Assembly: GCF_019355395.1 (NCBI RefSeq)
Contig: NZ_CP048829.1
Span: 2,197,501-2,261,500 of the forward strand
Direction of reading: 5' to 3'
Source: Chordicoccus furentiruminis
GTDB lineage: Bacteria; Bacillota; Clostridia; Lachnospirales; Lachnospiraceae
DNA length: 64,000 nt
Position 1 is the stretch's first letter. Each line of letters opens with the position of its first letter. Of this stretch, positions 9,869 through 64,000 are shown piece by piece. The notes under the pieces were generated by a model. That model was not told the DNA's origin. It did not search any database and was given only the letters and a program-made list of their open reading frames with translations. The position numbers and the translations under genes are program-made.

Positions 9869-9959
9869 TCGGGTAAGCTGCGTCTGGCAGCAGGATTCTC
9901 GTTCCGGGCTTGCACGAATGGCGTGGCGTGTGGGTCTCGAAAAGGAAAGGAGGAAGGTT

Positions 9960-11051: not shown

Positions 11052-11162
11052 GGGTAAGCCTGATAGTAACCGCTGCTGTGAGTTTTGAAGGGGCGGGGAA
11101 CGAGTGGTACTTCTTCTCCGCACGGCGGGGAAGATGCATTTTCAAAAAGAGGAGGAACGCAC

Positions 11163-11552
11163 ATGAACATTCCGGAAGAGCTGAAGTACACGAGAACGCA
11201 TGAGTGGGTGAAGACGGAAGACGGTGAGGCAGTGATCGGTATCACGGACTACGCGCAGGACGCGCTCGGGGACCTTGTCTTCGTCAATCTGCCGGAGGAA
11301 GGTGATGACGTGACGAAGGGCGAGGCATTTGCGGACGTTGAGTCGGTCAAGGCGGTCTCCGACGTGATCTCGCCGGTGACGGGAAGTGTGAGTGCGGTGC
11401 ATGAGGAGCTGGCGGACGAGCCTCAGAAGATGAATGAGGATCCGTACGGCGCCTGGTTCATCCGGGTGAAGGACATCACCGATACCGAGGAGCTGCTTTC
11501 GGCAGAGGAGTACGCAGCGTTTGTGAAGGAAGAGCAGGAAAAGGCGGACTGA
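11163..11552 (+). CDS. gcvH: Glycine cleavage system H protein
   Basis: A 129-aa lipoyl carrier that shuttles the aminomethyl group among the P, T and L proteins. The lipoylated lysine is K63 in [13 protein letters not shown], at the usual position. The N-terminal TRTHEWVK and [12 protein letters not shown] are family hallmarks. The start is the ATG at 11163 with AGGAGG 7 nt upstream rather than the upstream in-frame start at 11085. Its modification could be done by the lipoate-protein ligase encoded four genes later in the same operon. Confidence 0.96.
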
Positions 11553-11585
11553 ATTTCCCGGAAACTCTGTGAAAGGAGGATTGCG

Positions 11586-14341: not shown

Positions 14342-14482
14342 AACACACCCCATGGGCTGCCGGCTTGTCATCGATCGGAGGAAAAGACAGGGACTGCAGC
14401 TCTTTCGGAGGGATAGGATGGTTTCCGAAATGGGCAGGACAGCGCAAAGCATTCAGTGCGATGGACAGGAAGGGAGCGGACT

Positions 14483-34491: not shown

Positions 34492-35202
34492 ATGACCAGA
34501 CAGGAATTTACAGACCGTCTGGCCGCCCGGCTGGCGGAGTCACTCCCGCCGTCGGCGGTCCGGAGCCAGGTCCGGTACTATGAAGGGTACATCGACGCGG
34601 AGATCCGGAACGGCAAGACGGAGGAGGAAGCCACAGCCGGGCTGGGCGATCCGGTTCTGATTGCCCGCTCCATTCTCGAGTCGCCGCACAGCGAGGCGGA
34701 TTTCACGGTGAGTGACGGAGACGCGTACGAAGAGGGCAGCTATCAGGGCGCGAACCAGCCGGGTGAGAGCGGAGCCGGCGACGCGCTGACGGATACGACC
34801 CCGGGCGGGACGGAGAACGGCAGCGGGCGGGAAGCGGCGGAAAGAGGCCGGACGGAGACGGCGGGCAGCCGGAATGAGGCGGAAGACAGCCGGACGGAGA
34901 CGGCGGGCAGCCGGCATGAGGCGGAAGACAGCCGGACGGAGACGGCGGGCAGCCGGGCGGAGACGGCGGACCGCAGGAAAGAGACAGACAGCCGGACGAA
35001 ACCGGAGCGGAACCGCGTGTTCCGCGACGACAGCGGACGGCCGGACATCGGGCTGATCATGGTGATCGTGCTGGCTGTCATTGTGGTCGTGTCGCTCGTC
35101 CGCATCGCAGCCGGAGCAGCCGTTCCGGTGATTCCGGTGCTTCTGCTGATCCTGGCCTTGCTGCTGGTCTGGTTCATGTATTCCGGAAGACGCCGGTCGT
35201 AA
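34492..35202 (+). CDS. HAAS/DUF1700-domain membrane protein with 14-residue repeats
   Basis: A 236-aa protein in three parts. The N-terminal 65 residues (RQEFTDRLAARLAESLPP, YYEGYIDAEIRNGKTEEEA, LGDPVLIAR) are a HAAS/DUF1700-type helical domain, often linked to PadR regulators and membrane sensors. A hydrophilic linker (about 70-175) contains tandem RTETAGSR-EAEDS units. Two C-terminal hydrophobic segments (about 185-225) anchor it. The ATG at 34492 follows AAGGAGA; an ATG two codons earlier overlaps that spacing. No PadR partner gene is adjacent. Function unknown. Confidence 0.7.
   Translation: MTRQEFTDRLAARLAESLPPSAVRSQVRYYEGYIDAEIRNGKTEEEATAGLGDPVLIARSILESPHSEADFTVSDGDAYEEGSYQGANQPGESGAGDALTDTTPGGTENGSGREAAERGRTETAGSRNEAEDSRTETAGSRHEAEDSRTETAGSRAETADRRKETDSRTKPERNRVFRDDSGRPDIGLIMVIVLAVIVVVSLVRIAAGAAVPVIPVLLLILALLLVWFMYSGRRRS
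34849..34962 (+). repeat. Tandem 42-bp coding repeat
   Basis: Units start at 34849, 34891 and 34933 (the third partial) and encode RTETAGSRNEAEDS, RTETAGSRHEAEDS and RTETAGSRAETAD. Nearly identical DNA points to recent slippage expansion in the linker of the HAAS-domain protein. Confidence 0.85.
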
Positions 35203-47815: not shown

Positions 47816-48499
47816 ATGAAACGAAACGCGCAGGAAGCGAAAAACACCTATCTGACAAAGCAGGCACTGCAGCGCATGCCTTATTATCTGCAGTATCTGA
47901 AGGGCGCGAAGGCGGAAGGGAAGAGCCACGTATCGGCTGCCGCCATCGCGGAGGAGCTGGAGCTGAGCGACGTGCTGGTGCGGAAAGACATCGCGGCGGT
48001 CAGCTCGAAGCAGGGCCGACCGAAGGCCGGTTTCGAGGTGGATACGCTGATCGAGGATATCGAGCTCTACATGGGTTATCATCACACCAAGGAAGCGGTC
48101 CTCGTGGGCGCGGGCTCGCTCGGGCGGGCGCTGCTCGGAAACCGGGAATTCGGGGCTTACGGCTTTCAGATTGTCGCCGCCTTTGACGTGCGCCGCAGCG
48201 TGATCCGCAAGACGATCAGCGGCGTCGAGGTCCTGTCACTGGCGAAGCTGAGGGACTACTGTCTCCGGAGAAATATTCAGATCGGCATCATCACGGTGCC
48301 GGCGGAGGCCGCGCAGGACGTGGCCGACCGGATGGTCGACGGCGGCATCCGGGCAATCTGGAATTTCGCGCTGGTGAAGCTCAAGGTGCCGGAGGGCGTG
48401 CTCGTCCAGAATGAGGATCTTGCCTCGTCGCTGGCGATGCTGTCTCAGCACCTGCGGCTTGGAAACGAGATGGACAGCTCGTCCGGATGGATGGAATGA
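47816..48499 (+). CDS. rex: Redox-sensing transcriptional repressor Rex
   Basis: NADH/NAD+ sensor that represses fermentation and NADH-consuming pathways when NAD+ is high. A 227-aa protein with N-terminal winged helix (LTKQALQRMPYYLQYL, LSDVLVRKDIAAVSSKQGRP) and a Rossmann domain with VLVGAGSLGRAL (G98-G103), then the C-terminal domain-swap helix (NEDLASSLAMLSQHL). The ribosome binding site is GGAGACGG. It lies directly upstream of the fumC-hdr-flx-frd cluster, which uses NADH, and a Rex-like palindrome sits at that operon's promoter. Confidence 0.95.
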   Translation: MKRNAQEAKNTYLTKQALQRMPYYLQYLKGAKAEGKSHVSAAAIAEELELSDVLVRKDIAAVSSKQGRPKAGFEVDTLIEDIELYMGYHHTKEAVLVGAGSLGRALLGNREFGAYGFQIVAAFDVRRSVIRKTISGVEVLSLAKLRDYCLRRNIQIGIITVPAEAAQDVADRMVDGGIRAIWNFALVKLKVPEGVLVQNEDLASSLAMLSQHLRLGNEMDSSSGWME

Positions 48500-48532: not shown

Positions 48533-48578
48533 ACGGTTTTATCGATAATGCAATATCGATAAAACCGTTAGTTTGTAT
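48533..48578 (+). terminator. Terminator after rex
   Basis: A perfect 15-bp inverted repeat, ACGGTTTTATCGATA (48533-48547) and TATCGATAAAACCGT (48554-48568) with a 6-nt loop, followed by TAGTTTGTATT. It separates rex from the fumarase operon. Confidence 0.85.
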
Positions 48579-48607
48579 TGTTTAACTGTAAACCTGTATG
48601 CTACTAT
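48578..48607 (+). promoter_or_regulatory. Promoter of the fumC-hdr-flx-frd operon with Rex-like operator
   Basis: TTGTTT (48578-48583), 18 nt, TACTAT (48602-48607). TTGTTTA-ACTG-TAAACCT (48578-48595) overlaps the -35 box and resembles the Rex consensus TTGTTAA-N4-TTAACAA in half-site spacing and sequence, with an exact GTTTA/TAAAC core. Binding by the adjacent Rex is inferred. Confidence 0.5.
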
Positions 48608-48694
48608 CAGCTTATGTAGGCCGCACAGGTATCTTTTGATGCGCCTATCAAGTTTCCTCTCCAACCATTTTTCCAGTCATACAGGAGAATACAC

Positions 48695-50074
48695 ATGGAA
48701 TATCGGATTGAGCATGATTCAATGGGTGAAGTCAGGGTGCCCGCGGACCGACTCTGGGGCGCGCAGACCGAGCGCAGTCATGAGAATTTCCTGATCGGTG
48801 TCGGGATTGAGACCATGCCGCGCGAGATCACGCATGCCTTCGGCATTCTGAAAAAGGCGGCGGCGCAGGCGAACCATGAGCTGAAGCCGGAGAAGATGAC
48901 GGACGAAAAGCTGGAGGCCGTCACGACGGCCTGCGACGAGGTGATCTCCGGCCGGCTGAACGACAATTTCCCACTGGTTGTCTGGCAGACCGGATCCGGC
49001 ACGCAGTCGAACATGAACACCAATGAGGTGATCGCGAACCGGGCCAACGCCATCGCGGGCAAGCGGCTGTGCCATCCGAACGACGATATCAATATGAGTC
49101 AGTCCTCGAACGACACGTTCCCGACGGCGTTGCATATCTCCGCTGTGGTCGCGCTGGAGGACAGCCTGATTCCCTCCGCGGAGCGGCTGATCGCTGCGTT
49201 CAGGGATCTCGAGGCGGCCAATCCGACGATCGTGAAATCCGGGCGCACTCATCTTCAGGACGCGGTCCCGATCAAATTCTGCCAGGAAATTTCCGGCTGG
49301 CGGAGTTCCCTTGAGAAGGACGTGGAGCTGGTCCGTCTCGCGCTGGAGCCGCTGAAGACGCTGGCGCTGGGCGGCACGGCGGTTGGCACCGGCCTCAACG
49401 CGCCGAAGGGCTTCGATGTGCTGGTGGCGGAGAAGGTCTCGGCGCTCACCGGCAAGACCTTCCGCACGGCGGAGAACAAGTTCCACGCGCTGACCTCGAA
49501 GGACGAGGTCGTCTTCGCTCACGGCGCGGTGAAGGCGATGGCCGCCGATATGATGAAGATCGCGAACGACGTCCGCTGGCTGGCCTCCGGTCCCCGCGAC
49601 GGTCTCGGAGAGATCACGATTCCGGCCAACGAACCGGGTTCCTCCATCATGCCGGGCAAGGTCAATCCGACCCAGTGCGAGCAGGTGACAATGGTTGCGG
49701 TGCAGGTCATCGGTAACGATACGGCGATCGGCATGGCCGCGTCCCAGGGCAATTTCGAGCTCAATGTGTTCATGCCGGTGATCGCCTACAATTTCCTGCA
49801 GTCCGTGCGGCTTCTGTCCGAGTCGATGGAATCCTTCCGCAAGAACTGCGTTGTGGGAATCCGCGCCAATGAGGAGAAGATGCATCACAATCTTTACAAT
49901 TCTCTGATGCTGGTGACGGCGCTGAACCCCTACATCGGCTATGAGAAGGCGGCGAAGACGGCGCATCTTGCCTTCGAGGAGAACATTTCACTGAAGGACG
50001 CCTGCGTGAAGCTCGGCTTCCTGACGCCGGAGCGGTTCGACGAGGTCTTCCATCCGGAGGATATGGCAAACTGA
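48695..50074 (+). CDS. fumC: Fumarate hydratase class II
   Basis: Cofactor-free fumarase that interconverts malate and fumarate; 459 aa. Typical segments: TGSGTQSNMNTNEVIANRA, SSNDTFPTALH, KSGRTHLQDAVPI and the mobile catalytic loop GSSIMPGKVNPTQCE. ACAGGAGAATACAC precedes the ATG. It begins the operon that ends with a fumarate-reductase-like pair, so its likely direction in vivo is malate to fumarate, supplying the reductase. The next gene starts 38 nt downstream. Confidence 0.96.
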   Translation: MEYRIEHDSMGEVRVPADRLWGAQTERSHENFLIGVGIETMPREITHAFGILKKAAAQANHELKPEKMTDEKLEAVTTACDEVISGRLNDNFPLVVWQTGSGTQSNMNTNEVIANRANAIAGKRLCHPNDDINMSQSSNDTFPTALHISAVVALEDSLIPSAERLIAAFRDLEAANPTIVKSGRTHLQDAVPIKFCQEISGWRSSLEKDVELVRLALEPLKTLALGGTAVGTGLNAPKGFDVLVAEKVSALTGKTFRTAENKFHALTSKDEVVFAHGAVKAMAADMMKIANDVRWLASGPRDGLGEITIPANEPGSSIMPGKVNPTQCEQVTMVAVQVIGNDTAIGMAASQGNFELNVFMPVIAYNFLQSVRLLSESMESFRKNCVVGIRANEEKMHHNLYNSLMLVTALNPYIGYEKAAKTAHLAFEENISLKDACVKLGFLTPERFDEVFHPEDMAN

Positions 50075-50111
50075 AGACGGGTCTGTGAGAAGAAAGGAAG
50101 AGGACGGCAAA

Positions 50112-50975
50112 ATGGTTTACAGTTATTTTCCGGGCTGTACGCTGAAGAACAAGGCGCGCGATCTTGACGAGTACGGAAGACGCGCCGCCGAGGTGCTCGG
50201 CGCGACGCTGGAGGAGATCCCCGAGTGGCAGTGCTGCGGCGGTGTCTATCCGCTGTCGCATGACGAGATCGCCATCAAACTGAGCTCGGTCCGGGCGCTG
50301 GCGAAAGCCGGAGAGGAGAACCGGACGCTGGTCACGCTCTGCTCCGCCTGCCACAACGTCATCAAGCAGGTCAATCACGATATGGCGGCGGACGAGTACG
50401 TCTCGGAGCGCGCCAACAACTATCTGAAGGCCGACGGCATCAGCTATCACGGGGAGACGAAGGAAATCCACTATCTGGAGCTGCTCCGCGACGAGATCGG
50501 CTACGATCAGGTGAAGAAGGCGGTAAAGCATCCGTTCACGGGAAAGAAGATCGGCGCCTACTACGGCTGCCTGCTGCTCCGTCCCGGCAACGTGATGGCG
50601 ATGGACAATCCGGAGAATCCGACGATCATGGAGGATTTTATCCGTGCGATCGGCGCGGAACCGGTCGTCTACGCCCAGCGGAACGAATGCTGCGGCGGCT
50701 ACCTCGTGCTGGAGGACCGGACGATTCCGGAGAAGCGGGTGAAGGCGATCCTCGCCAACGCGAAGGATCAGGGCTGCGAGACGCTGATCACGGCCTGCCC
50801 GCTGTGCTACTACAATCTGCGGAAGCACGCGGAGGGCAGCGGAGTGGAGACCCGATACTTCACCGAACTGCTGGCTGAGGCGCTTGGCGTCAAGGATCCC
50901 GCGGAGACGCCGGCCGGCGCGGACGCCGCCGATGCGGTCTGTCCGGGCGTAAGAGCGGGAAAGGAGGGTGCGTGA
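50112..50975 (+). CDS. hdrB: Heterodisulfide reductase subunit B-like (two CCG domains)
   Basis: A 287-aa protein with two complete cysteine-rich CCG motifs: C9, C41-C42, C77, C80 and C153, C193-C194, C229, C232. In methanogen HdrB these hold the non-cubane clusters that reduce a disulfide. Both ligand sets are intact, so the catalytic subunit may still act on a disulfide or serve as an electron relay. Start at 50112 with AAGGAAGAGG upstream. Clostridia do not make coenzymes M and B, so the substrate, if any, is not the methanogen one. The hdrC start follows directly. Confidence 0.9.
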   Translation: MVYSYFPGCTLKNKARDLDEYGRRAAEVLGATLEEIPEWQCCGGVYPLSHDEIAIKLSSVRALAKAGEENRTLVTLCSACHNVIKQVNHDMAADEYVSERANNYLKADGISYHGETKEIHYLELLRDEIGYDQVKKAVKHPFTGKKIGAYYGCLLLRPGNVMAMDNPENPTIMEDFIRAIGAEPVVYAQRNECCGGYLVLEDRTIPEKRVKAILANAKDQGCETLITACPLCYYNLRKHAEGSGVETRYFTELLAEALGVKDPAETPAGADAADAVCPGVRAGKEGA

Positions 50976-51368
50976 ATGGCCTCTGAGTATGAAGTGACGA
51001 AGGAAGAGATCGAAGCCATCAGCGGCGCGAATCCGCTTAAATGCATGCGCTGCGGACGCTGCTCCGCGACCTGCCCGTCGTATGACAATATGGAATACCA
51101 TCCGCATCAGTTCGTGATGATGGTGGAAAAGGGAGAGCTCGACAAGCTGATGGCAAGCGAAAGCGTCTACCGCTGCATGTCCTGCATGGCCTGCATCGAG
51201 CGCTGCCCGCGGCAGGTTCAGCCGGCGAAGCTCATCGAAGCGGTCCGTCTGGCGATGGTCCGCCGTCAGGGCGCGAACCATCTGACACCCGACGACATCC
51301 CTGCGCTGCTTGATCCGGACCTTCCGCAGCAGGCACTGGTCAGCGCATACCGCAAGTTCACGAAATAA
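50976..51368 (+). CDS. hdrC: Heterodisulfide reductase subunit C-like (2x[4Fe-4S])
   Basis: A 130-aa iron-sulfur protein with two [4Fe-4S] motifs, CMRCGRCSATCP (about 23-34) and CMSCMACIERCP (about 67-78). It transfers electrons between HdrA and HdrB in characterised complexes. The ATG abuts the hdrB stop, with AAAGGAGGG inside hdrB. The gene order hdrB-hdrC-hdrA differs from the common hdrABC order but keeps all three together. Confidence 0.92.
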   Translation: MASEYEVTKEEIEAISGANPLKCMRCGRCSATCPSYDNMEYHPHQFVMMVEKGELDKLMASESVYRCMSCMACIERCPRQVQPAKLIEAVRLAMVRRQGANHLTPDDIPALLDPDLPQQALVSAYRKFTK

Positions 51369-51380
51369 AGGAGAAATCAA

Positions 51381-53384
51381 ATGCAGAGAATTGGCGTATT
51401 TGTGTGCTGGTGCGGCAGCAATATCGCGGCGACCGTGGATGTCAAGGCGGTGGCCGAGGCGGCGAGATCCGTACCGGGCGTGGTTTTCTCCGCTGACTAC
51501 CAGTATATGTGCTCCGAAGCCGGCCAGGAGCTGGTGAAGGAATCAGTGAAGAAGTATCAGCTGACCAACGTCGTGATGTGCACCTGCTCCCCGAGAATGC
51601 ATGAAAATACATTCCGCAAGGCAGTCCAGTCCGTGGGCATGAACCCATATATGCTCGAGGTGGCCAACATCCGTGAGCAGTGCTCCTGGGTCCACAAAGA
51701 CAAGGCGGTGGGGACGCAGAAGGCGATCGCGCTGATGAAGGCGGCTGTGGCAAAGGCGACGCTGGACAGCCCGCTGACCGCGGGCTCCACGCCTGTCACG
51801 AAGCGGGCGCTGGTGATCGGCGGCGGCATCGCGGGTATGCAGACGGCTCTCGATATCGCGGAGGCCGGATTCGACGTCGATATCGTGGAGTCGAAGCCGA
51901 CCATCGGCGGCAAGATGGCCCAGCTGGACAAGACCTTCCCGACGCTGGACTGCTCCTCCTGCATCGTCACCCCGAAGATGGTGGAGGTCGGCCAGAACGA
52001 GCGGATCCACATCTACAGCTACTCCGAGGTGGAGGCGGTGAAGGGCTTTGTCGGTCAGTTCACCGTCACGATCCGGCGCAAGGCCCGCTATGTCGACGAG
52101 ACGAAATGCACCGGCTGCGGCGAGTGCACCGAGAAATGCCCGATGAAGAAGGTGCCCGACGAGTGGAATTTCAACCTGAACAACCGGCGCGCGATCTATA
52201 TCCCGTTCGCGCAGGCGGTGCCCAAGGTGGCGACCATTGATCCACGGTACTGCATCAGGCTGAACACCGGGAAATGCGGCGTCTGCTCCAAGGTCTGCGG
52301 CGCCGGCGCCATCAACTACGAGGCGAAGGACGAGCTCATCGACGTGGAATACGGCGCGATCGTCGCGGCTACCGGCTATGAGATGATCGGCGTCGACCGC
52401 TTTGATGAGTACGCGTATTCCCAGAGCCCGGATGTGGTCACCTCCCTTGAATACGAGCGTCTGATGAGCGCGGCCGGCCCGACCGGCGGCCATCTGGTCC
52501 GGCCTTCCGACGGGAAGGAGCCGAAGACGATCGTCTTTGTCCAGTGCGTCGGCTCGAGAGAAACGGAGAACAGCTGCCACGGCGGCAAGACCTACTGCTC
52601 AAAGGTCTGCTGCATGTACACGGCGAAGCACGCGATCCTGACGAAGGATCATTATCCGGATACCGACATCTACGTCTTCTACATCGACGTCCGCACGCCG
52701 GGCAAGCTCTTCGACGAGTTCTATCGCCGGGCGGTGGAGCAGTACAACGTGCATTACATCAAGGGCGCGGTCGGCAAGGTCACCCCGAACCGGGCGACCG
52801 GAAAACTGGAGGTTCAGGCGTCCGACCTGCTGCTCAATGAGCAGCTTCACATCAACGCGGACATGGTCGTTCTGGCTGCGGCTCTCGAACCCAGCCGCAG
52901 CGCGCGTCATATCGCGACGATGCTGACGGCCTCGATGGACACGAACGACTTCTTCACCGAGGCGCACGCGAAGCTCCGCCCTGTGGAGTCCCCGACGGCC
53001 GGCGTCTTCCTCAGCGGATTCTGTCAGGGACCGAAGGATATTCCGGAGACGGTCGGTCAGGCAGGCGCGGCGGCGGCCAAGGTGATCGGACTTCTGACGA
53101 AGAACGAGCTGGTCGGCAACCCGTGCGTCGCCCGTCCGGATGAGATGATGTGCAACGGCTGCTCACAGTGCGAGACGGTCTGCCCGTACGGCGCGATCAC
53201 GTATATTGAGAAAGATTTCCGTATGCCGGACCGCACCACCAGAAAGCGCCGCGTCGCGTCGGTGAACCCGGCCGTCTGCCAGGGCTGTGGCGCCTGCACG
53301 GTGACCTGCCCGTCCGGCGCGATGGACCTTCAGGGCTTCTCGAACCAGGAAATCATGGCGGAGGTAGATGCGTTATGTCTGTAA
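51381..53384 (+). CDS. hdrA: Heterodisulfide reductase subunit A-like flavoprotein
   Basis: A 667-aa FAD protein, the bifurcating subunit in Hdr complexes. An N-terminal domain (1-130) carries CWCG and CTCSPRMHE. The FAD fold is VIGGGIAGMQTAL (145-157), followed by TIGGKMAQLDKTFPTLDCSSC, typical of HdrA. Ferredoxin-like clusters are C243-TGCGECTEKC and, at the C-terminus, CNGCSQCETVCP and CQGCGACTVTCP. The complete motif set fits electron bifurcation from the Flx module to ferredoxin and a high-potential acceptor. The stop overlaps mvhD by 10 nt. Confidence 0.92.
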   Translation: MQRIGVFVCWCGSNIAATVDVKAVAEAARSVPGVVFSADYQYMCSEAGQELVKESVKKYQLTNVVMCTCSPRMHENTFRKAVQSVGMNPYMLEVANIREQCSWVHKDKAVGTQKAIALMKAAVAKATLDSPLTAGSTPVTKRALVIGGGIAGMQTALDIAEAGFDVDIVESKPTIGGKMAQLDKTFPTLDCSSCIVTPKMVEVGQNERIHIYSYSEVEAVKGFVGQFTVTIRRKARYVDETKCTGCGECTEKCPMKKVPDEWNFNLNNRRAIYIPFAQAVPKVATIDPRYCIRLNTGKCGVCSKVCGAGAINYEAKDELIDVEYGAIVAATGYEMIGVDRFDEYAYSQSPDVVTSLEYERLMSAAGPTGGHLVRPSDGKEPKTIVFVQCVGSRETENSCHGGKTYCSKVCCMYTAKHAILTKDHYPDTDIYVFYIDVRTPGKLFDEFYRRAVEQYNVHYIKGAVGKVTPNRATGKLEVQASDLLLNEQLHINADMVVLAAALEPSRSARHIATMLTASMDTNDFFTEAHAKLRPVESPTAGVFLSGFCQGPKDIPETVGQAGAAAAKVIGLLTKNELVGNPCVARPDEMMCNGCSQCETVCPYGAITYIEKDFRMPDRTTRKRRVASVNPAVCQGCGACTVTCPSGAMDLQGFSNQEIMAEVDALCL

Positions 53385-53821
53385 ATGAAACGAAGGAATT
53401 TTCACCGAAGATCATCGCCTTCTGCTGCAACTGGTGCTCCTACGGCGGCGCGGATCTCGCCGGAACGAACCGCCTGAGCTATCCGGCCAACGTCAAGATC
53501 GTCCGCGTGCCCTGCTCCTGCCGCGTGAATCCGATGTTCATCCTGCGCGCCTTCCAGCGCGGCGCCGACGGCGTCATCGTCTGCGGCTGCCACCCGGGCG
53601 ACTGCCATTACAGCACCGGAAACTATCACACAAGGCGCAGGATGACGATGCTCTTCTCCATGCTGAACTATCTCGGAGTCGAGAGCGCGCGGACCCGCGT
53701 CGAGTGGGTCTCCGCCGCGGAGGGATCGAGGTTCAAGAGCGTCATGGACAGCTTTGTGGAAGATATCACCCGGCTGGGTCCGAACGTTAGACTGGAGGAT
53801 ATAAGATGCAAGCAGAACTGA
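53375..53821 (+). CDS. MvhD/FlxD-like iron-sulfur subunit
   Basis: A 148-aa [2Fe-2S] adaptor that docks an electron-input module to HdrA. Conserved cysteines lie in FCCNWCSYGGADLAG (about 14-28), VRVPCSCRVNP and VCGCHPGDCHYSTGNY. It overlaps the end of hdrA and the start of the next gene (53806), which indicates tight translational coupling. In Flx-Hdr clusters the equivalent subunit is FlxD. Confidence 0.9.
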   Translation: MSVNETKEFSPKIIAFCCNWCSYGGADLAGTNRLSYPANVKIVRVPCSCRVNPMFILRAFQRGADGVIVCGCHPGDCHYSTGNYHTRRRMTMLFSMLNYLGVESARTRVEWVSAAEGSRFKSVMDSFVEDITRLGPNVRLEDIRCKQN

Positions 53822-54783
53822 TCAAACGCGCCTGCGAGCTGCTCGAGGACGGAACCGTGAACCGTGTGCTCGGCTGGCAGAAAGGCCAGTTCGTCTACGA
53901 TATCACGCCGGCCGTCTTCACCAGCGCGGAGGATGTACGCAGTCATTTTGTCTACAACGATTTCTGCGCGGACAACCTTTCGAAGTATCTGATCAAAGAG
54001 TCGGAGAAGGAAGGGAAGGTGCTCGCGTTCCTGAAGCCCTGCGATACCTACAGCTTCAACCAGCTCGAGACCGAGCACAAGCTTCACCGGGAGAACATCT
54101 ACGTCATCGGGATTCCGAGCTACGGCAAGGCGGACATCGAGAAGCTCCGTGCCCGCGGCATTGACGGCATCACGGATATCGAGAATGAGAACGGCACGCT
54201 GAAGATCACGACGATCTACGGCGAGGAGACGGTCCCGGCGTACGAGGTGATGCTGGACAAGTGCCTCGCCTGCAAATCGAAGAAGCATGTGGTCTACGAC
54301 GAGCTGATCGGAGAGGACGGCGACGTGGTCCCGGATTCCGGACGTTTCGACCTCGTGGAGAAGCTTGACAGGATGAGCGCGAAGGAACGCTTCGAGTTCT
54401 GGCGCGGGGAGCTCTCACGCTGCATCCGCTGCAACGCCTGCCGGAACGTCTGCCCGGCCTGCACGTGCGAGAAGTGCGTCTTCGACAATCCGGCATCCGG
54501 CGTCCAGAACCGGGGCGCCCGCGACTCCTTCGAGGAGAATATGTTCCATATCATCCGCGCGTACCACGTCGCGGGCCGCTGCACGGACTGCGGCGAGTGC
54601 TCGCGCGTCTGCCCCGAGCATATCCCGCTTCATCTGCTCAACCGGAAGTTCATCAAGGATTTCAACGATCTCTACGGTGAGTTCCAGGCCGGCGCGGAGG
54701 TCGGCCAGATGAGCCCGATGTGCGCCTACACACAGGATCAGGACGCGGAGCCGTCCGTCGTGCAGAAAGGAGGCGCCGAATAA
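53806..54783 (+). CDS. FlxC-like 4Fe-4S dicluster protein (FrhB-like N-terminus)
   Basis: A 325-aa protein of the hydrogenase-associated iron-sulfur type. The N-terminal half (VLAFLKPCDTYSFNQLE, ENIYVIGIPSYG) resembles the F420-hydrogenase/dehydrogenase beta fold. The C-terminal half has two [4Fe-4S] sets, CIRCNACRNVCPACTCEKC and CTDCGECSRVCPEHIP. GGAGG is 9 nt before the ATG, within mvhD. It is placed where floxC/flxC lies in Flx-Hdr clusters; the exact homology is inferred from gene order and motifs. Confidence 0.75.
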   Translation: MQAELIKRACELLEDGTVNRVLGWQKGQFVYDITPAVFTSAEDVRSHFVYNDFCADNLSKYLIKESEKEGKVLAFLKPCDTYSFNQLETEHKLHRENIYVIGIPSYGKADIEKLRARGIDGITDIENENGTLKITTIYGEETVPAYEVMLDKCLACKSKKHVVYDELIGEDGDVVPDSGRFDLVEKLDRMSAKERFEFWRGELSRCIRCNACRNVCPACTCEKCVFDNPASGVQNRGARDSFEENMFHIIRAYHVAGRCTDCGECSRVCPEHIPLHLLNRKFIKDFNDLYGEFQAGAEVGQMSPMCAYTQDQDAEPSVVQKGGAE

Positions 54784-55811
54784 TGATCTATCAGATCGCG
54801 TTTGAGAAGCTGGATCAGCTGCTGGGTGCGCTCAGCAGGAATGAGACGGTTTACCTTCCGGTGGACAATGCTCAGGGAGAGGCGGATTTTGAACGCTACG
54901 AGGCAGGGAAGAAGCTGAGCACGCGCCTCAACACACGCCGCTCGGCGAAGGACTTCTTCTTCCCGCAGATCCAGCCGCTGGTGAAGTTCCGCCGCGAGGG
55001 AAAGAAGATCGAGATCTTCGACGAGCGGAAGGAATCCGAGGATTTCGTGATCTTCGGCGCGCGGGCCTGCGACGTCCGTTCCTTCAGCGTCCTTGACCGC
55101 GTGTTCCTCGCGGATCCGGTGGATACCAACTACAAGACGAGAAGAGAGCACAGCACGATCGTGACGCTGGCCTGCTCCCGGCCGGGAGAGACCTGCTTCT
55201 GCGGATCCTTCGGAATCGACGCGGCGAAGCCGTCGGACGGAGACGCACGCGCCTGGATCGCGGACGGCGTCTTCTACCTCGAGCCGATGACGGAGAAGGG
55301 CGAGAAGCTGGCCGCGCAGGCGAAGGATGTGCTCACGGAGGGCGGAGAGGAAGCCGTCGGTGCGGCGGTGGAGAAGGCCCGCGCGATTCTTGCGAGGCTG
55401 CCTCTGGCCGGCCTGAAGCCGTCTGACAACCGGGAGCGTGAGCTGGAGCTCTTCAATTCCCCGGAGTGGGACGAGCTCTCGAGCCACTGTCTCGGCTGCG
55501 GCGCCTGCACCTTCGTCTGCCCGACCTGCCAGTGCTTCGACATCAACGACTTCGATTCGGGCCACGGCGTCGAGCGGTACCGCTGCTGGGACAGCTGCAT
55601 GTACAACGATTTCACGATGATGGCGGCCGGCACGCCCCGCAAGACCCAGAAGGAACGGTTCCGCCAGCGCTTCATGCACAAGCTGGTGTATTATCCGATC
55701 CGGTATGACGGCGTCTTCAGCTGCGTCGGCTGCGGGCGCTGCCTCCGGAAGTGCCCGATTCAGATGAATATCGTGAAGGTGATGAAGACACTGGAGGTGG
55801 ACAAGGGATGA
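54783..55811 (+). CDS. FlxB-like 4Fe-4S dicluster protein
   Basis: A 342-aa iron-sulfur subunit resembling anaerobic sulfite reductase subunit A and FlxB. The N-terminal region (VYLPVDNAQGEADFERY, DFFFPQIQPLVKF, DFVIFGARACDVRS) is the conserved AsrA-like domain. Clusters are CLGCGACTFVCPTCQC and CVGCGRCLRKCP near the C-terminus. Its ATG overlaps the preceding stop by one base (TAATG), and its own stop overlaps the next start (ATGA), so it is translated in step with flxC and flxA. Confidence 0.8.
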   Translation: MIYQIAFEKLDQLLGALSRNETVYLPVDNAQGEADFERYEAGKKLSTRLNTRRSAKDFFFPQIQPLVKFRREGKKIEIFDERKESEDFVIFGARACDVRSFSVLDRVFLADPVDTNYKTRREHSTIVTLACSRPGETCFCGSFGIDAAKPSDGDARAWIADGVFYLEPMTEKGEKLAAQAKDVLTEGGEEAVGAAVEKARAILARLPLAGLKPSDNRERELELFNSPEWDELSSHCLGCGACTFVCPTCQCFDINDFDSGHGVERYRCWDSCMYNDFTMMAAGTPRKTQKERFRQRFMHKLVYYPIRYDGVFSCVGCGRCLRKCPIQMNIVKVMKTLEVDKG

Positions 55812-56638
55812 TGGAGAGAGAGGAATTGATTCCGCAGCTCGGTGTCGTGACGGATATCCGGAGAGATACGCCGGATGTCAAGACCTTCCGGGTCGTCGGA
55901 ACCGACGGAAAGAAGCTGTTCGAGCATATCCCGGGCCAGTGCGCGATGCTCTCGATCCCGGGGATCGGCGAAGGCATGTTCTCGATTACGTCCTCGCCGA
56001 CCAACGAGGAATACATGGAGTTTTCCATCAAGAAATGCGGCTGTCTGACAAGCTGGCTGCACGCGATGGACGTAGGTCAGGAGATCTGCGTCCGCGGTCC
56101 GTACGGAAACGGGTTCCCCGTGGATACGTTCTTCCGCGGCAAGGACCTGCTCTTCATCGCCGGCGGCATCGGCCTCGCGCCGCTGCGCAGCGTCATCAAC
56201 TACTGCCGTGACAACCGGGAAAACTACGGCCAGATCAACGTCCTCTACGGTTCCCGTTCGAAGGACGATCTCGTGGATTACCAGGAGATTCTGGACGAGT
56301 GGATGAACTGTCCCAATACGAACGTGTACCTCACCATCGACCGCGAGCAGGAGGGATGGGACGGCCATGTCGGATTCGTTCCGAACTACGTGACGGAGCT
56401 GAACTTCCCGACGACGCTGGTGCCGATCATCTGCGGACCGCCGATCATGATCCATTTCACGCTCGAGGGACTGAAGAAGCTGGGATTCAACGAGTCGCAG
56501 GTGTGGACGACGATGGAAATGAGGATGAAGTGCGGGATCGGCAAGTGCGGCCGCTGCAATATCGGCGACAAGTATGTCTGCAAGGACGGGCCGGTCTTCA
56601 GCTTCGATCAGCTGGCGAAGCTGCCTCCGGAATACTGA
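55808..56638 (+). CDS. FlxA-like FAD/NAD-binding oxidoreductase subunit
   Basis: A 276-aa flavoprotein of the ferredoxin-NADP reductase superfamily (like AsrB and PyrK), the likely NADH entry point. FAD domain: SITSSPTNEEYMEFSIKKCG; NAD domain: FIAGGIGLAPLRSVINYC and the late ICGPPIMI. A [2Fe-2S] cluster is predicted in MKCGIGKCGRCNIGDKYVC, with PyrK-like spacing. It begins with ATGATG overlapping flxB. Unlike the rest of the operon, it is followed by ~570 nt without a gene, filled by a repeat array. Confidence 0.88.
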   Translation: MMEREELIPQLGVVTDIRRDTPDVKTFRVVGTDGKKLFEHIPGQCAMLSIPGIGEGMFSITSSPTNEEYMEFSIKKCGCLTSWLHAMDVGQEICVRGPYGNGFPVDTFFRGKDLLFIAGGIGLAPLRSVINYCRDNRENYGQINVLYGSRSKDDLVDYQEILDEWMNCPNTNVYLTIDREQEGWDGHVGFVPNYVTELNFPTTLVPIICGPPIMIHFTLEGLKKLGFNESQVWTTMEMRMKCGIGKCGRCNIGDKYVCKDGPVFSFDQLAKLPPEY

Positions 56639-56654
56639 CAAGCTACGAGCCATG

Positions 56655-57152
56655 CGCGGATCGACTGACGCGACGGGAAGGCCGCTTGCGGCCGGACCGG
56701 AACGGCAGGAGAGACGCATACGGCGACAGCCGGAGCCTCCTGCCCGGAGGGCAGGAGGACATGGCTCGGAGCGCGGACAGCGCGGATCGACTGACGCGAC
56801 GGGAAGGCCGCTTGCGGCCGGACCGGAACGGCAGGAGAGACGCATACGGCGACAGCCGGAGCCTCCTGCCCTGAGGGCAGGAGGGCATGGCTCGGAGCGC
56901 GGACAGCGCGGATCGACTGACGCGACGGGAAGGCCGCTTGCGGCCGGACCGGAACGGCAGGAGAGACGCATACGGCGACAGCCGGAGCCTCCTGCCCTGA
57001 GGGCAGGAGGGCATGGCTCGGAGCGCGGACAGCGCGGATCGACTGACGCGACGGGAAGGCCGCTTGCGGCCGGACCGGAACGGCAGGAGAGACGCATACG
57101 GCGACAGCCGGAGCCTCCTGCCCTGAGGGCAGGAGGACATGGCTCGGAGCGC
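56655..57152. repeat. Four 126-bp tandem repeats inside the operon
   Basis: Units begin at 56655, 56781, 56907 and 57033; the last lacks six bases. The copies are nearly identical. Each carries the hairpin GGCCGC-TT-GCGGCC (first copy 56680-56693) and the stronger CCTCCTGCCC-NGA-GGGCAGGAGG (first copy 56736-56758), nested in GAGCC/GGCTC. Copies 1 and 4 share GGACATGG and copies 2 and 3 GGGCATGG after the second stem. The array fills the gap between flxA and frdB. Because 126 is divisible by three, long open frames cross it on both strands, but they only repeat a 42-residue low-complexity unit and are not taken as genes. Confidence 0.95.
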
Positions 57153-57207
57153 TCTTTTATCTTTGTAACCTGAAGTCCGATTCCAATATATGGAGGACGT
57201 ACCAATC

Positions 57208-57879
57208 ATGGCAAATGTGAATGTGTTCTTCTTCGGGAAGAAATACGAAGTGCCGGACAATCTGACGATCATGACGGCGATGGAATACGCCGGCTATCAG
57301 CTGGTCCGCGGCTGCGGCTGCCGCAACGGCTTCTGCGGCGCCTGCGCGACCATCTACCGCATCAAGGGGAAGCAGGAGCTTCAGATGGCGCTCGCCTGCC
57401 AGACGAAGGTCGAGGACAATATGTATGTCGCGACCCTGCCGTTCTTCCCGCTTGTAAAGCAGGTCTATGATATCAACAAGGTGGAGCCGACCCAGCAGAT
57501 CATGATGCAGCTCTATCCGGAAATTTATTCCTGCATCGGCTGCAACGCCTGCACGAAGGCATGCACCCAGGGCCTCGATGTTATGCAGTACATCGCCTAC
57601 GCCCAGCGCGGCGATTTCAAGAAGTGCGCGGAGCTCTCCTTTGACTGCGTGATGTGCGGCGTCTGCTCCTCCCGCTGCCCGGCGGGTATCTCCCATCCGC
57701 AGGTCGCGATGCTGGCGCGGCGCCTCAACGGCAAATATCTGACCCCGGATGCGGAGCATCTGAAGGCCAGAGTGAAGGAAATCTACGACGGCAATTTCAA
57801 GGATGCGATGGAAGCGTATATGAACAAGTCCGACGCGGAGATCCGTGAGATGTACAATAACCGCGACATTGAAGCGTAA
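57208..57879 (+). CDS. frdB: Fumarate reductase-like iron-sulfur subunit
   Basis: A 223-aa SdhB/FrdB-type protein. The N-terminal plant-type ferredoxin domain has CGCRNGFCGAC and a later cysteine (C36/38, C43, C46, C64). The C-terminal domain has CIGCNACTKAC (C109-C119) and CVMCGVCSSRC (C147-C157), which suit a [4Fe-4S] pair rather than the [3Fe-4S] of quinone-linked enzymes. No CCG domain is fused, unlike methanogen TfrB. GGAGG lies 9 nt before the ATG at 57208. It follows the 126-bp repeat array and precedes frdA by 17 nt. Confidence 0.88.
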   Translation: MANVNVFFFGKKYEVPDNLTIMTAMEYAGYQLVRGCGCRNGFCGACATIYRIKGKQELQMALACQTKVEDNMYVATLPFFPLVKQVYDINKVEPTQQIMMQLYPEIYSCIGCNACTKACTQGLDVMQYIAYAQRGDFKKCAELSFDCVMCGVCSSRCPAGISHPQVAMLARRLNGKYLTPDAEHLKARVKEIYDGNFKDAMEAYMNKSDAEIREMYNNRDIEA

Positions 57880-57896
57880 GCGACGGAGGAGAGAAC

Positions 57897-59519
57897 ATGT
57901 ATCCAGAAAGCTATAAGGAATCGATCGAAAAAGTCGCTGAGAAACGTGCGGCCAACGCGGCGGCGGAGCCGAGACGGATGACTGCGGAGGAGAAGGACGC
58001 GCTCCTTGCCGAGTTCCATCCGGATTACAACCAGGATGCCTTCGAGGAACTGAAGGTGGGGCCGAACAAGGGCGAGAAGGCGCCTCACGAGCTGGCTGCG
58101 ATGCTGGAAGCCCACGCGCGCGTACACGCCGGCGAGGTGGACCTCACGAAACCGGCTTATGACACGGACGTGCTCATCATCGGCGGAGGCGGAGCCGGCT
58201 GCTCGGCGGCCATCGAGGCCGACGACGCGGGGGCGAAGGTCCTGATCGCGACGAAGCTCCGCACCGGTGACGCGAACACCATGATGGCGGAGGGCGGCAT
58301 TCAGGCGGCGGACAAGCCGAACGATTCGCCGCAGCAGCATTTCCTCGACGCTTACGGCGGCGGCCATTTCATGGCGAAGAAGGAGCTCGTCGCGAAGCTC
58401 GTCACCGAGGCGCCGGAGGACATCCTCTGGCTGAACAAACTCGGCTGCGAGTTCGACAAGGACGAGAACGGCGACATGATCACGACGCACGGCGGCGGCA
58501 CGTCCCGGAAGAGAATGCACGCCTGCAAGGACTACTCCGGCGCCGAGATCATGCGGACCCTGCGGGACGAAGTGCTGAACCGCGGCATTCCGATTCTTGA
58601 GTTCACGTCCGCGATCGAGATTCTGAAGGATGACAAGGGAAATGCAGCCGGCGCGATTCTGCTCAACATGGAGACACTGGAGCTCTTCGTCGTCCGCGCG
58701 AAATGCGTGATTCTGGCGACCGGCGGCGCGGGCCGCATGCATTACCAGGGATTCCCGACCTCCAACCATTACGGAGCGACGGCGGACGGACTGGTGCTCG
58801 GCTACCGTGCCGGCGCAAAGCTGCTGTATCAGTACACTCTGCAGTATCATCCCACCGGCGTCGCCTATCCGGATCAGATTTACGGCGCGCTGGTGACGGA
58901 GAAGGTCCGCTCTCTGGGCGCCAAGGTGGTCAACAAGGACGGCGACATCTTCGTTCATCCGCTGGAGACCCGTGACGTGGAAGCCGCGGCGATCATCCGC
59001 GAGTGCCGGAAGGGCAACGGCGTGAAGACCGAGCACGGGTGCGGCGTCTGGCTTGACGCACCGATCATCGAAATCAAGAACGGTGCCGGCACGATCCAGA
59101 AAAGAATCCCGGCGATGTACCGGATGTTCGAGAAGCGCGGGATCGACATCACGAAAGAGCCGATCCTCGTCTATCCGACGCTGCATTACCAGAACGGCGG
59201 ACTCGACATCGACACGAACTGCGAAACCGGCGTGAAGAACCTTTTCGCTGCCGGCGAGGTGACCGGCGGCGTGCACGGCACGAACCGTCTGATGGGCAAT
59301 TCGCTTCTTGACGTCATCGTCTTCGGACGCGACGCGGGCCGGGCGGCCGGCGCGCGCTGCAAGGAAGTGACGGTCGGCCCGCTGAACATGGACCATGTGG
59401 CGGCCTATGAGAAAGAGCTGGACGCGGCCGGCATCCATACGGATCTTGTCTCTCCGAAGCTCCTTCCGAAGTATGTCCGCCAGCGCACGACGCTGGAGGG
59501 ACCGGGCATCATTCAGTGA
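57897..59519 (+). CDS. frdA: Fumarate reductase-like flavoprotein subunit (soluble)
   Basis: A 540-aa FAD protein of the FrdA/SdhA family. The FAD motif IIGGGGAGCSAA (94-105) comes after an unusual ~88-residue N-terminal extension. Dicarboxylate-site residues are kept: H318 (YHPTG), R359 (TRDVE), H430 (YPTLHYQNGG) and R464 (GTNRLMGNS). At the place of the histidine that covalently binds FAD in FrdA/SdhA there is N127 (DANTMMAEGG), so FAD should be non-covalent, as in NadB and thiol:fumarate reductase. The RGEGG stretch after TEKVR is also altered (SLGA). No membrane anchor genes follow. Fumarate reduction in the cytoplasm is the likely role; another enoate substrate is possible. Confidence 0.85.
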   Translation: MYPESYKESIEKVAEKRAANAAAEPRRMTAEEKDALLAEFHPDYNQDAFEELKVGPNKGEKAPHELAAMLEAHARVHAGEVDLTKPAYDTDVLIIGGGGAGCSAAIEADDAGAKVLIATKLRTGDANTMMAEGGIQAADKPNDSPQQHFLDAYGGGHFMAKKELVAKLVTEAPEDILWLNKLGCEFDKDENGDMITTHGGGTSRKRMHACKDYSGAEIMRTLRDEVLNRGIPILEFTSAIEILKDDKGNAAGAILLNMETLELFVVRAKCVILATGGAGRMHYQGFPTSNHYGATADGLVLGYRAGAKLLYQYTLQYHPTGVAYPDQIYGALVTEKVRSLGAKVVNKDGDIFVHPLETRDVEAAAIIRECRKGNGVKTEHGCGVWLDAPIIEIKNGAGTIQKRIPAMYRMFEKRGIDITKEPILVYPTLHYQNGGLDIDTNCETGVKNLFAAGEVTGGVHGTNRLMGNSLLDVIVFGRDAGRAAGARCKEVTVGPLNMDHVAAYEKELDAAGIHTDLVSPKLLPKYVRQRTTLEGPGIIQ

Positions 59520-59765: not shown

Positions 59766-61142
59766 TTGAGTCAGTCAGCCGCTTCATATGAAACATCCCA
59801 GTACCGGAAGATGACGGAGACGCCCGTACCGCGTCTGATCCTCTCCCTCGCCGTACCGACCATCATCAGCATGATGGTCACGAATCTGTACAATACCGCC
59901 GACACATGGTTCGTCAGCCGTCTGGGAACGTCCGCCGCCGGCGCGGTCAGCATTGTCTTCTCGCTGATGGCGATCTATCAGGCGATCGGCTTCATGTTCG
60001 GCCACGGAGCGGGCAGCAACATATCACGTAAGCTCGGCGCGAAGCATTTCGACGAGGCAAAAAAGTTCGCCTCGACGAGCTTCTTCCTCTCGATCGCGGT
60101 GAGCGCCGCGGTCTCCGCGGCCGGTCTGGTCTTCATGAATCCGCTTCTACGCGCGCTCGGCAGCACGAAGACGATTCTGCCATACGCTCGTCAGTACGTG
60201 TTCTGGATCCTGCTGTCCGGCCCGTTCCTTTCCGTGAGCTGTGTGCTCAACAACATCCTGCGGTACGAGGGCCATGCCGCCTACGCGATGGTCGGGCTCA
60301 CGACGGGCGGGATTCTCAATCTCGCCGGGGATCCGATTCTGATGTTCGGCTTCGGACTGGGTGTATCCGGCGCCGGTCTCAGCACCGCGCTGTCTCAGGT
60401 CGTCAGCTTTCTGATTCTGCTGTTCATGTTCCGGAGAGACGACGTCGTCAGCGAGTTCCACGTCCGGAATATTTCACGCAGCGGCGTTCTGGTCGGCTCG
60501 ATCATCGCGACCGGGATGCCCAGTCTCGTCCGGCAGAGTCTCAACAGTCTGACCACCATCGTGCTGAACCATCAGGCGGCTGTCTACGGAGACGCCGCGA
60601 TCGCCGCGATGGGCATTGTCGCGAAAGTGACCGCCTTCCTCGCGTCCATCGCGATCGGCATCGGACAAGGCTATCAGCCGGTCGCATCCTTCAACTACGG
60701 CGCGGGACGGTACGGACGGGTCCGGAAAGGGTTCCGGTTCACCTCGTCGTCGGGGACGGCTCTTGTCGGCGGTTTCGCGCTTCTCTGCGCGGTCTTTTCG
60801 CCGGAGATCATCCGCTGGTTCCGCGATGATCCGGAGGTCGTCGCGATCGGAGCGGCCGCGCTGAGATGGCAGTCCTTATCCGGTCTGTTCATGAGCTACT
60901 CCATCACGGCGGGGATGCTGTTCCAGAGCACCGGCGTCAGCGGACGGGCGACCTTTCTGTCCGCTCTCCGGGCCGGCATTCTCTTCCTCCCGCTGATTCT
61001 GATCCTGCCGGCGGTTTTCGGCCTCACAGGCATCGAAACCGCGCAGCCGGCGGCGGACATCCTGTCGACGCTGATCAGCATTCCGATCACAGAAGCCTTC
61101 CTCGCGGGGCTGAAAAAGGCGGGGACAGACGGATGGTCATGA
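59766..61142 (+). CDS. MATE-family multidrug/cation exporter
   Basis: A 458-aa membrane transporter with twelve predicted helices in two six-helix halves. The first half starts PVPRLILSLAVPTIISMMVTNLYNTADTWFVSRLG, diagnostic of MATE proteins; the second shows GIGQGYQPVASFNYGAGRYGRV. It exports cationic drugs or metabolites with Na+ or H+. The start is TTG at 59766 after GGGGAGGAACGA. No regulator is next to it, so the substrate is open. Confidence 0.92.
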   Translation: MSQSAASYETSQYRKMTETPVPRLILSLAVPTIISMMVTNLYNTADTWFVSRLGTSAAGAVSIVFSLMAIYQAIGFMFGHGAGSNISRKLGAKHFDEAKKFASTSFFLSIAVSAAVSAAGLVFMNPLLRALGSTKTILPYARQYVFWILLSGPFLSVSCVLNNILRYEGHAAYAMVGLTTGGILNLAGDPILMFGFGLGVSGAGLSTALSQVVSFLILLFMFRRDDVVSEFHVRNISRSGVLVGSIIATGMPSLVRQSLNSLTTIVLNHQAAVYGDAAIAAMGIVAKVTAFLASIAIGIGQGYQPVASFNYGAGRYGRVRKGFRFTSSSGTALVGGFALLCAVFSPEIIRWFRDDPEVVAIGAAALRWQSLSGLFMSYSITAGMLFQSTGVSGRATFLSALRAGILFLPLILILPAVFGLTGIETAQPAADILSTLISIPITEAFLAGLKKAGTDGWS

Positions 61143-63546: not shown

Positions 63547-64000
63547 ATGAGTAAAATGATCGATCTTAACCGTTCGGTTTTTGAACTGGTCACAGAATAT
63601 CCGGAGATCGGGGACATCATGGAGAAGCTGGGATTCAGGGAGATCAGAAAGCCGGCCATGCTGCACTCGGTCGGAAAGCTGATGACGCTGCCGCGGGGAG
63701 CCAGGATGAAAAATATCCCGATGGAAAAGGTGATCGCGGCGCTGACGGAGCACGGCTTCACGTTTTCGGAGGAGAAGCCCGCGCCGCAGCCGCCGCGCCC
63801 GGAAAAGCCGGAAACACAGCCCGCGCCGCAGCCGCCGCACCCGGAAAAGCCGGAAACACAGCCCGCGCCGCAGCCGCCGCGCCCGGAAAAGCCGGAAACA
63901 CAGCCCGCGCCGCAGCCGTCGCGCCCGGAAAAGCCGGAAACACAGCCCGCGCCGCAGCCGTCGCGCATGGAGGATCTCAAGGGCTATCTGCGCCGTCTTG
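63547..64000 (+). CDS. DUF1858-domain protein with proline-rich repeat linker (partial; probable DUF438 type)
   Basis: The first ~70 residues (MIDLNRSVFELVTEYPEIGD, IMEKLGFREIRKPAMLHSVG, MTLPRGARMKNI) are a DUF1858-type domain, often found in anaerobe redox and nitrite-linked proteins. A proline-rich linker of 14-residue units PAPQPPRPEKPETQ follows. The last visible residues, MEDLKGYLRRL, match the start of a DUF438 domain, which in relatives leads to hemerythrin and PAS domains. The gene runs past the window edge. GGGAGGA precedes the ATG by 7 nt. It is divergent from the DUF134-NifX gene. Confidence 0.75.
   Translation, partial: MSKMIDLNRSVFELVTEYPEIGDIMEKLGFREIRKPAMLHSVGKLMTLPRGARMKNIPMEKVIAALTEHGFTFSEEKPAPQPPRPEKPETQPAPQPPHPEKPETQPAPQPPRPEKPETQPAPQPSRPEKPETQPAPQPSRMEDLKGYLRRL
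63778..63969 (+). repeat. Tandem 42-bp proline-rich coding repeat
   Basis: Units start at 63778, 63820, 63862, 63904 and 63946 (partial), encoding PAPQPPRPEKPETQ with H/R and P/S changes. It forms an extended linker between the DUF1858 and next domains. Confidence 0.9.

Follow-up and report, generated by a model that had tools for sequence, protein, structure and literature searches.

We analysed a 64,000-nucleotide window (bases 2197501-2261500) of the 3.27-Mb single-contig genome of Chordicoccus furentiruminis, for which a first-pass annotation had proposed an operon for an electron-bifurcating fumarate reductase. The open reading frame (ORF) list and family searches placed ten genes, fumC, hdrB, hdrC, hdrA, flxD, flxC, flxB, flxA, frdB and frdA, in this order on the plus strand at 48695-59519 (Table 1). 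The one-directional run described earlier was recovered with all ten genes at their places. Matches to Pfam and NCBIfam families had E-values of 1e-18 to 1e-235 for fumC, hdrB, hdrA and frdA, while frdB was weaker (best 4e-11). Five junctions of the operon abut or overlap: hdrC follows hdrB with 0 nt between them, and hdrA-flxD, flxD-flxC, flxC-flxB and flxB-flxA overlap by 10, 16, 4 and 4 nt, respectively. The remaining gaps are 37 nt (fumC-hdrB), 12 nt (hdrC-hdrA), 563 nt (flxA-frdB) and 17 nt (frdB-frdA). The overlaps of 1-16 nt reported before were found as four overlaps of 4-16 nt, and the 563-nt gap had gone unmentioned. The range first given for the operon, 48578-59519, was right at its end, but 48578 falls just past a palindrome and fumC starts at 48695. 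No membrane-anchor gene lies between fumC and frdA, as had been claimed; this was judged from the ORF list alone, without transmembrane prediction.

Table 1. Genes and other features of the fumC-frdA locus (positions in the window)
Feature	Position	Strand	Remarks
rex-like redox-sensing repressor (presumed)	47816-48499	+	upstream neighbour; tblastn match in 15/100 loci of relatives
perfect 15-bp inverted repeat with T-rich tail, between rex and fumC	48533-48568		terminator-like
fumC, class II fumarase	48695-50074	+	TIGR00979, 687.9 bits (cut-off 664.75 exceeded)
hdrB, two CCG domains (two non-cubane 4Fe-4S sites)	50112-50975	+	PF02754 in two stretches; PDB HdrB chains 8rvv_B and 5odc_B
hdrC, two 4Fe-4S clusters	50976-51368	+	TIGR03290, Fer4_8
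hdrA, FAD and Fe-S clusters, predicted bifurcation site	51381-53384	+	residues 3-664 align with 5odc_A (E 1.4e-204)
flxD/mvhD, 2Fe-2S, predicted electron entry to HdrA	53375-53821	+	PF02662 (E 1.9e-54)
flxC-like 4Fe-4S protein	53806-54783	+	Fer4_8 and others
flxB-like, ShyB/AsrA-type 4Fe-4S protein	54780-55811	+	PF17179, NF040829
flxA-like, FAD- and NAD(P)-binding subunit with 2Fe-2S	55808-56638	+	PF00175, PF10418
four tandem 126-nt GC-rich repeats, flxA-frdB gap	56654-57152		
frdB, 2Fe-2S and two 4Fe-4S clusters, no 3Fe-4S pattern	57202-57879	+	
frdA, fumarate reductase flavoprotein, non-covalent FAD predicted	57897-59519	+	

The cofactor motifs of HdrA, HdrB, FlxA and FrdA, which had been described as intact, were conserved across relatives. 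In HdrA, the glycines for flavin adenine dinucleotide (FAD), the 20 cysteines of the CxxC/CC cluster motifs (243-306, 389-411 and 591-643) and residues E359 and K416 were kept in 82/82 sequences. The last two were matched by counting along the alignment to E356 and K409 of 5odc_A, which we take to be residues next to the bifurcating FAD (one review was searched for both, with no hit). HdrB kept two sets of five CCG/CxxC cysteines (10 in all) and HdrC its 8 cluster cysteines, each in 81/81 relatives, and FlxA kept the CGPP motif and four C-terminal cysteines in 99/99. At the threshold of the search of its own genome, HdrB was the sole CCG protein found.

The twelve cluster cysteines of FrdB, for one 2Fe-2S and two 4Fe-4S clusters, were present in 101/101 relatives. 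Its residues 149-160 read CxxCxxCxxxCP, with all four cysteines in 101/101, in contrast to the 3Fe-4S site of quinone-linked enzymes, whose pattern we take to be CxxxxxC. FrdA kept the residues aligned with H232, T244, E245, R248, R287, D288, H355 and R390 of E. coli FrdA in 93/93 sequences, with roles and numbering as we presume them for the E. coli enzyme. At the position of the covalent-FAD histidine of E. coli FrdA, all 93 sequences have asparagine (Asn127), and loss of the covalent FAD bond abolishes succinate oxidation. Succ_DH_flav_C did not match the FrdA of the window or of the relative L034, the two proteins scanned. The length of FrdA was 528-545 residues in 92 relatives with a full ORF, including an N-terminal extension of about 85 residues before the FAD domain, which was helical and confident in the predicted structure. 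This model had a pLDDT (predicted local distance difference test score) of 79 and a predicted template modelling (TM) score of 0.84; positions 127-140 and 196-209 were of low confidence, and the TM score to E. coli FrdA was 0.64; the FrdB model was poor (pLDDT 62.5) and was set aside. The best NCBIfam match of FrdA was TfrA at 355.6 bits, which does not reach the cut-off of 718 and covers profile positions 5-410 of 546. Taken together, these sequence features suggest that FrdBA is a soluble fumarate reductase independent of quinones and would not easily work as a succinate dehydrogenase. A search of the genome gave no second FrdA of this type; its only other matches were L114, a 596-residue protein with 30% identity that looks by eye like a different FAD protein, and L115, a short stretch.

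The gene set was searched in other genomes with FrdB, scanning one genome for each of 84,980 species. At least 585 relatives were confirmed and the best 80 were kept, among which the nearest by FrdB were metagenome-assembled genomes (MAGs) of Lachnospiraceae with 92% (L033), 87% (L035) and 85% (L034) identity. The gene directly before frdB was flxA in 79 of these 80 loci, and the other locus (L093) begins at frdB. All nine genes from hdrB to frdA were found in the same order in 62/80 (in L055 and L110, frdA is cut by the contig end), with fumC in front in 59 of the 62; 17 more loci were cut by a contig end with flxA still before frdB. This sample was biased to close relatives, and therefore 20 divergent loci of the class were also examined, with FrdB of 50-73% identity, from 40 class genomes with a strong FrdB match. 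Here frdBA stood beside flx or hdr genes in 20/20. All nine genes were present in 18, L131 and L132 being cut, and the sole rearrangement was seen in the most distant locus, L121, where frdBA has moved to the front of the block. fumC was in view in 3/20 of the divergent loci, and at least three of the 17 without it are truncated by the end of the contig. The physical and evolutionary link of frdBA with hdr and flx genes is thus strongly supported. The whole fumC-frdA block was also seen in locus L088 (1721-12309), a record titled as a Treponema sp. MAG, with FrdB 79% identical to that of the window. Going by the title of this one MAG, the block would be either a transfer across phyla or a misplaced contig.

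We also examined a sample of 398 genomes of the phylum, in which FrdB was found in 39, and inspected all 38 loci besides the window. The hdr genes adjoined frdBA in 21/38 and their layout varied. The order frdBA-hdrBCA-flxDCBA was found in four loci and hdrCBA-flxDCBA-frdBA in one, and five of the 38 had hdrCB-frdBA with no hdrA or flx in view. In 11 loci, a second large HdrA-like protein and an MvhD-like stretch preceded frdBA (L159 and L173 are cut before hdrCB). For example, L165 carries at 9676-14562 hdrCBA, a 1092-residue HdrA-like protein, a 472-residue protein with an MvhD-like stretch, and frdBA, followed downstream by 2-oxoacid:ferredoxin oxidoreductase genes. The 472-residue protein matched no NCBIfam model at 1e-8. 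Similar loci were L156, L159, L161, L166-L170, L172 and L173. By their gene content, the L165-type genes are a candidate alternative electron-input module for frdBA.

The HdrB encoded beside FrdBA was inherited together with it. With thresholds of E <1e-80 for FrdB and <1e-20 for HdrB, 39 of 291 class genomes had both, one had only FrdB, two had only HdrB and 249 had neither (Fisher 8e-45, which ignores the kinship of the genomes), and the three discordant genomes are 62-77% complete. Among the 398 phylum genomes, all 27 with an HdrB above 200 bits had FrdB; this threshold was set afterwards, at a visible gap from 201.7 to 181.6. A tree was built from 69 HdrB sequences: 44 linked to frd (7 from close loci, 18 from divergent class loci and 19 from the phylum), 7 from unlinked hdrBCA and 18 others, leaving out 9 further matches without loci and the close-locus HdrBs beyond the 7 included. 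One clade (94% ultrafast bootstrap) held 43 of the 44 frd-linked sequences and all 7 from unlinked hdrBCA in genomes with lone frdBA, while the 18 others, matches from the same search, fell outside it. This tree indicates that one HdrB subtype accompanies FrdBA with or without flx in view, and also where the two are encoded apart. Since some relatives keep only hdrCB-frdBA, HdrB looks like the partner of FrdBA. In the genome of L161 (G563), another HdrB, of the usual type and with 201.7 bits, is encoded just outside the stretch.

We consider, with a probability of roughly 0.7, that the product of the operon is a soluble fumarate reductase that oxidises NADH and reduces ferredoxin. Judged from the sequences, the operon has what is needed for NADH oxidation, flavin-based bifurcation and fumarate reduction, and we infer a single complex with electron transfer from HdrB to FrdB and reduction of ferredoxin. 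In such a complex, FlxA would accept hydride from NADH; FlxB, FlxC and FlxD would carry the electrons on to the FAD of HdrA, where they would be split. The low-potential electron would go from HdrA to ferredoxin, and the other would go through HdrC, HdrB and FrdB to the FAD of FrdA, where fumarate would be reduced to succinate. The predicted net reaction is 2 NADH + fumarate + 2 Fd(ox) -> 2 NAD+ + succinate + 2 Fd(red). HdrB-FrdBA would form the conserved terminal unit, FumC would supply fumarate, and Rnf and hydrogenases would re-oxidise ferredoxin. The genome encodes one RnfC above the cut-off, one ATP-dependent phosphoenolpyruvate carboxykinase and two [FeFe] hydrogenase matches, which fit a branch from phosphoenolpyruvate to succinate with re-oxidation of ferredoxin. 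For the potential of ferredoxin (E0'), passages in the literature give -420 mV (PMC5861303) and -500 mV (PMC12773636). With -320 mV for NADH, +33 mV for fumarate and this range for ferredoxin, simple arithmetic gave -49 to -33 kJ/mol under standard conditions.

Several observations weigh against this reading. frdBA was found without adjoining hdr genes in 17/38 phylum loci, three of which (L141, L152 and L174) have just 1.4-2.5 kb of contig upstream. The first-pass annotation had regarded such separation as speaking against its proposal; the link stood in the close and the divergent class loci and was lacking in these 17, although 7 of the 17 genomes keep the same hdrBCA type elsewhere. Of the other lone-frdBA genomes, five had only other HdrBs and five had no HdrB match at E 1e-15. 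Among the three lone loci whose neighbours were scanned, L143 had a class I fumarase and malic enzyme, L145 malic enzyme and L151 pyruvate carboxylase. Lone and linked loci were interspersed on a tree of FrdB and FrdA (70 loci; L128 and L149 were left out as they had no full FrdA/FrdB), suggesting that the link between frdBA and hdr was gained or lost more than once. Because 10/39 phylum genomes with frdB lacked this HdrB type (setting aside G537, truncated at the end of its contig, and G379, which has a weaker HdrB that belongs to the clade), FrdBA can apparently use another donor. The linked HdrB of L161 grouped with other HdrBs. No HdrB-specific surface was detected on FrdBA: between 60 sequences with this HdrB and 10 without it, 0/58 invariant columns changed in FrdB and 1/173 in FrdA. 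HdrB retains both sets of non-cubane ligands, which are also suited to disulfide chemistry. In tubeworm symbionts, expression of tfrAB did not follow the flx-hdr cluster, according to a passage in PMC11636981. Finally, a consensus scan for a Rex site upstream of fumC gave, over 79 upstream regions, scores distributed like those of shuffled sequence (10/14 matches in the window, and 13 in L138 and L139), and for this reason we make no claim of Rex control, despite the adjoining rex-like gene.

Some of these points would suit a non-bifurcating NADH:fumarate reductase, a single complex in which HdrA merely relays electrons and ferredoxin is left unreduced or only leakily reduced. The hdrCB-frdBA loci without hdrA nearby and the lone frdBA loci suggest that HdrA is dispensable for fumarate reduction, and the MvhADG-HdrABC complex is described in a passage of PMC5861303 as prone to uncoupling. 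We nevertheless think this unlikely in view of HdrA itself, whose FAD glycines, 20 cluster cysteines and E359/K416 are kept without exception. A similarly low chance is given to a scheme in which Flx-Hdr reduces a soluble disulfide and FrdBA is fed by the resulting thiol or another carrier, so that the genes would share only their regulation. Flx-Hdr has indeed been described as an NADH dehydrogenase/heterodisulfide reductase and proposed as such for Desulfovibrio, both CCG sites of HdrB are conserved (81/81), and lone frdBA loci exist. Yet FrdBA itself lacks a CCG domain, and no CCG protein other than HdrB was found in the genome, so that CCG chemistry could link a thiol to FrdBA only via this HdrB. 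Moreover, the HdrB subtype tracks FrdBA and not Flx, and is kept in hdrCB-frdBA loci where no flx is in view.

The chain is reversible in principle, and the 2-oxoacid:ferredoxin oxidoreductase genes beside frdBA in L165, which has the other input module, would suit operation in reverse, with succinate oxidation and confurcation to NADH in vivo. The asparagine in place of the covalent-FAD histidine in 93/93 sequences and energetics that favour fumarate reduction make this very unlikely. The least probable reading, which we hardly credit at all, is that FrdA is an L-aspartate oxidase or a reductase of another unsaturated acid. NadB models match FrdA with 279 bits, no other FrdA/NadB-like protein of comparable similarity was found in the genome, and NadB shares most fumarate-site residues with FrdA. 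Against this, TfrA is the better model even though its own cut-off is not reached, fumC stands in front of the operon, FrdB is present as a partner and the fumarate-site residues are kept.

The predicted NADH-oxidising, ferredoxin-reducing fumarate reductase was compared with known systems. FlxABCD-HdrABC of Desulfovibrio vulgaris, reportedly described by Ramos et al. in 2015, likewise has seven flx and hdr genes in one operon, with NADH-binding FlxA, MvhD-like FlxD and HdrABC; the present operon differs in the addition of frdBA and fumC and in an HdrB subtype that tracks FrdBA. The HdrA alignment with 5odc_A and the full set of cluster ligands and FAD site in 82 sequences also resemble electron-bifurcating HdrABC. 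In methanogen TfrAB, FrdB-like and HdrB-like parts are joined in one chain and the donor is CoM-SH/CoB-SH (the thiols coenzyme M and coenzyme B). Both parts serve one fumarate reductase here too, and the best model of FrdA is TfrA; unlike in TfrAB, FrdB and HdrB are separate ORFs, there is an additional HdrC, FrdA has the N-terminal extension but not the C-terminal part of the TfrA model, and the predicted donor is NADH. The 8-methylmenaquinol:fumarate reductase SdhABE (MFR) also has an HdrB-like subunit beside FrdAB, and HdrB matches the SdhE model with 132.7 bits, but this is far under the cut-off of 500 and no quinone site is known here. Membrane-bound fumarate reductase or succinate dehydrogenase differs from the present enzyme, which has no anchor ORF, no covalent-FAD histidine and no 3Fe-4S pattern.

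The closest counterpart was found in Pseudoclostridium (Clostridium) thermosuccinogenes, in which a 'succinate operon' of a fumarase, seven Flx-Hdr genes and two fumarate reductase genes is described in PMC7282089. There, fumarate reduction is assumed, citing a 2019 preprint, to be coupled to ferredoxin reduction, and CO2 limitation raised the operon about 4-fold, with not all subunits reaching significance. Going by that text, the two operons have the same ten genes, the same order by locus tag and the same proposed coupling; there, a hypothetical protein, perhaps a transporter, lies downstream, whereas here a MATE-like ORF follows. Among tubeworm symbionts, tfrAB is found among flx-hdr genes, and direct transfer from Hdr-Flx to thiol:fumarate reductase has been proposed (passages in PMC6315080 and PMC11636981). 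The cluster shared by these symbionts and Thioflavicoccus (korABCD, tfrAB, flxABCD-hdrABC) resembles the present one in having fumarate reductase genes among flx-hdr genes, but belongs, according to the same passages, to an autotrophic reductive tricarboxylic acid cycle with 2-oxoglutarate:ferredoxin oxidoreductase genes interspersed. No purified bifurcating fumarate reductase or biochemical proof was found in the literature searched, most subscription journals and preprints being outside its coverage. The earlier statement that no characterised enzyme has this composition therefore holds as far as purified enzymes are concerned, while the gene set and the coupling idea are already in print (PMC7282089). 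The bifurcating fumarate reductase operon is a known, still unproven kind, and its coupling was proposed before. New here are the co-inheritance of the HdrB subtype with FrdBA, the hdrCB-frdBA and alternative-input layouts, and the breadth among gut Clostridia, which we did not find stated elsewhere in the parts of the publications available.

The flxA-frdB junction had a median length of 18 nt in 97 relatives (range 5-995) and exceeded 100 nt in 9/97. The long gap of the window is thus local, and we regard the operon as genuine in this lineage, with a probable local insertion at this junction. The four 126-nt repeats in the gap are 98-100% alike and had no further match elsewhere in the same genome. 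One unit folded much better than its shuffles (z -5.1), and the repeats may dampen frdBA expression. Further tandem repeats were seen in the window at 34847-34985 (21/42 nt) and at 63776-63966 (42 nt); the second array lies within a predicted Gly-Cys-Gly-Ala-rich ORF. The gene upstream of fumC, presumably rex-like, was named from its sequence and our general knowledge and not from a family search; it probably has its own transcript, separate from the operon. By its sequence, the palindrome between the two could be either the rex terminator or an operator. A MATE-like multidrug-export membrane protein, named by a look at its sequence only, is encoded at 59766-61142, 246 nt downstream of frdA.

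Succinate serves as a hydrogen sink in rumen and gut, as does the propionate formed from it. Among the best 80 of at least 585 relatives, no fewer than 33 have a record title that mentions an animal or gut sample, and 79 bear Clostridia-type or Bacillota names; the question thus reaches beyond one organism. We regard it as an even bet that these loci define an enzyme class with fumarate, and not a disulfide, as the high-potential acceptor. In this class, a dedicated HdrB subtype would relay electrons to a shortened, non-covalent FrdA, and HdrB(C)-FrdBA would be a modular terminal joined to varied inputs (Flx, a second large HdrA with an MvhD-like fusion, or none in view), so that many gut Clostridia would obtain reduced ferredoxin from forming succinate. 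The HdrB-FrdB pairing would allow a direct test of how Hdr complexes switched their high-potential acceptor. If the proposed coupling is true, succinate formation would yield reduced ferredoxin instead of a quinone-linked gradient; this ferredoxin could drive Rnf or hydrogen release, and the energy balances of these fermenters would change.

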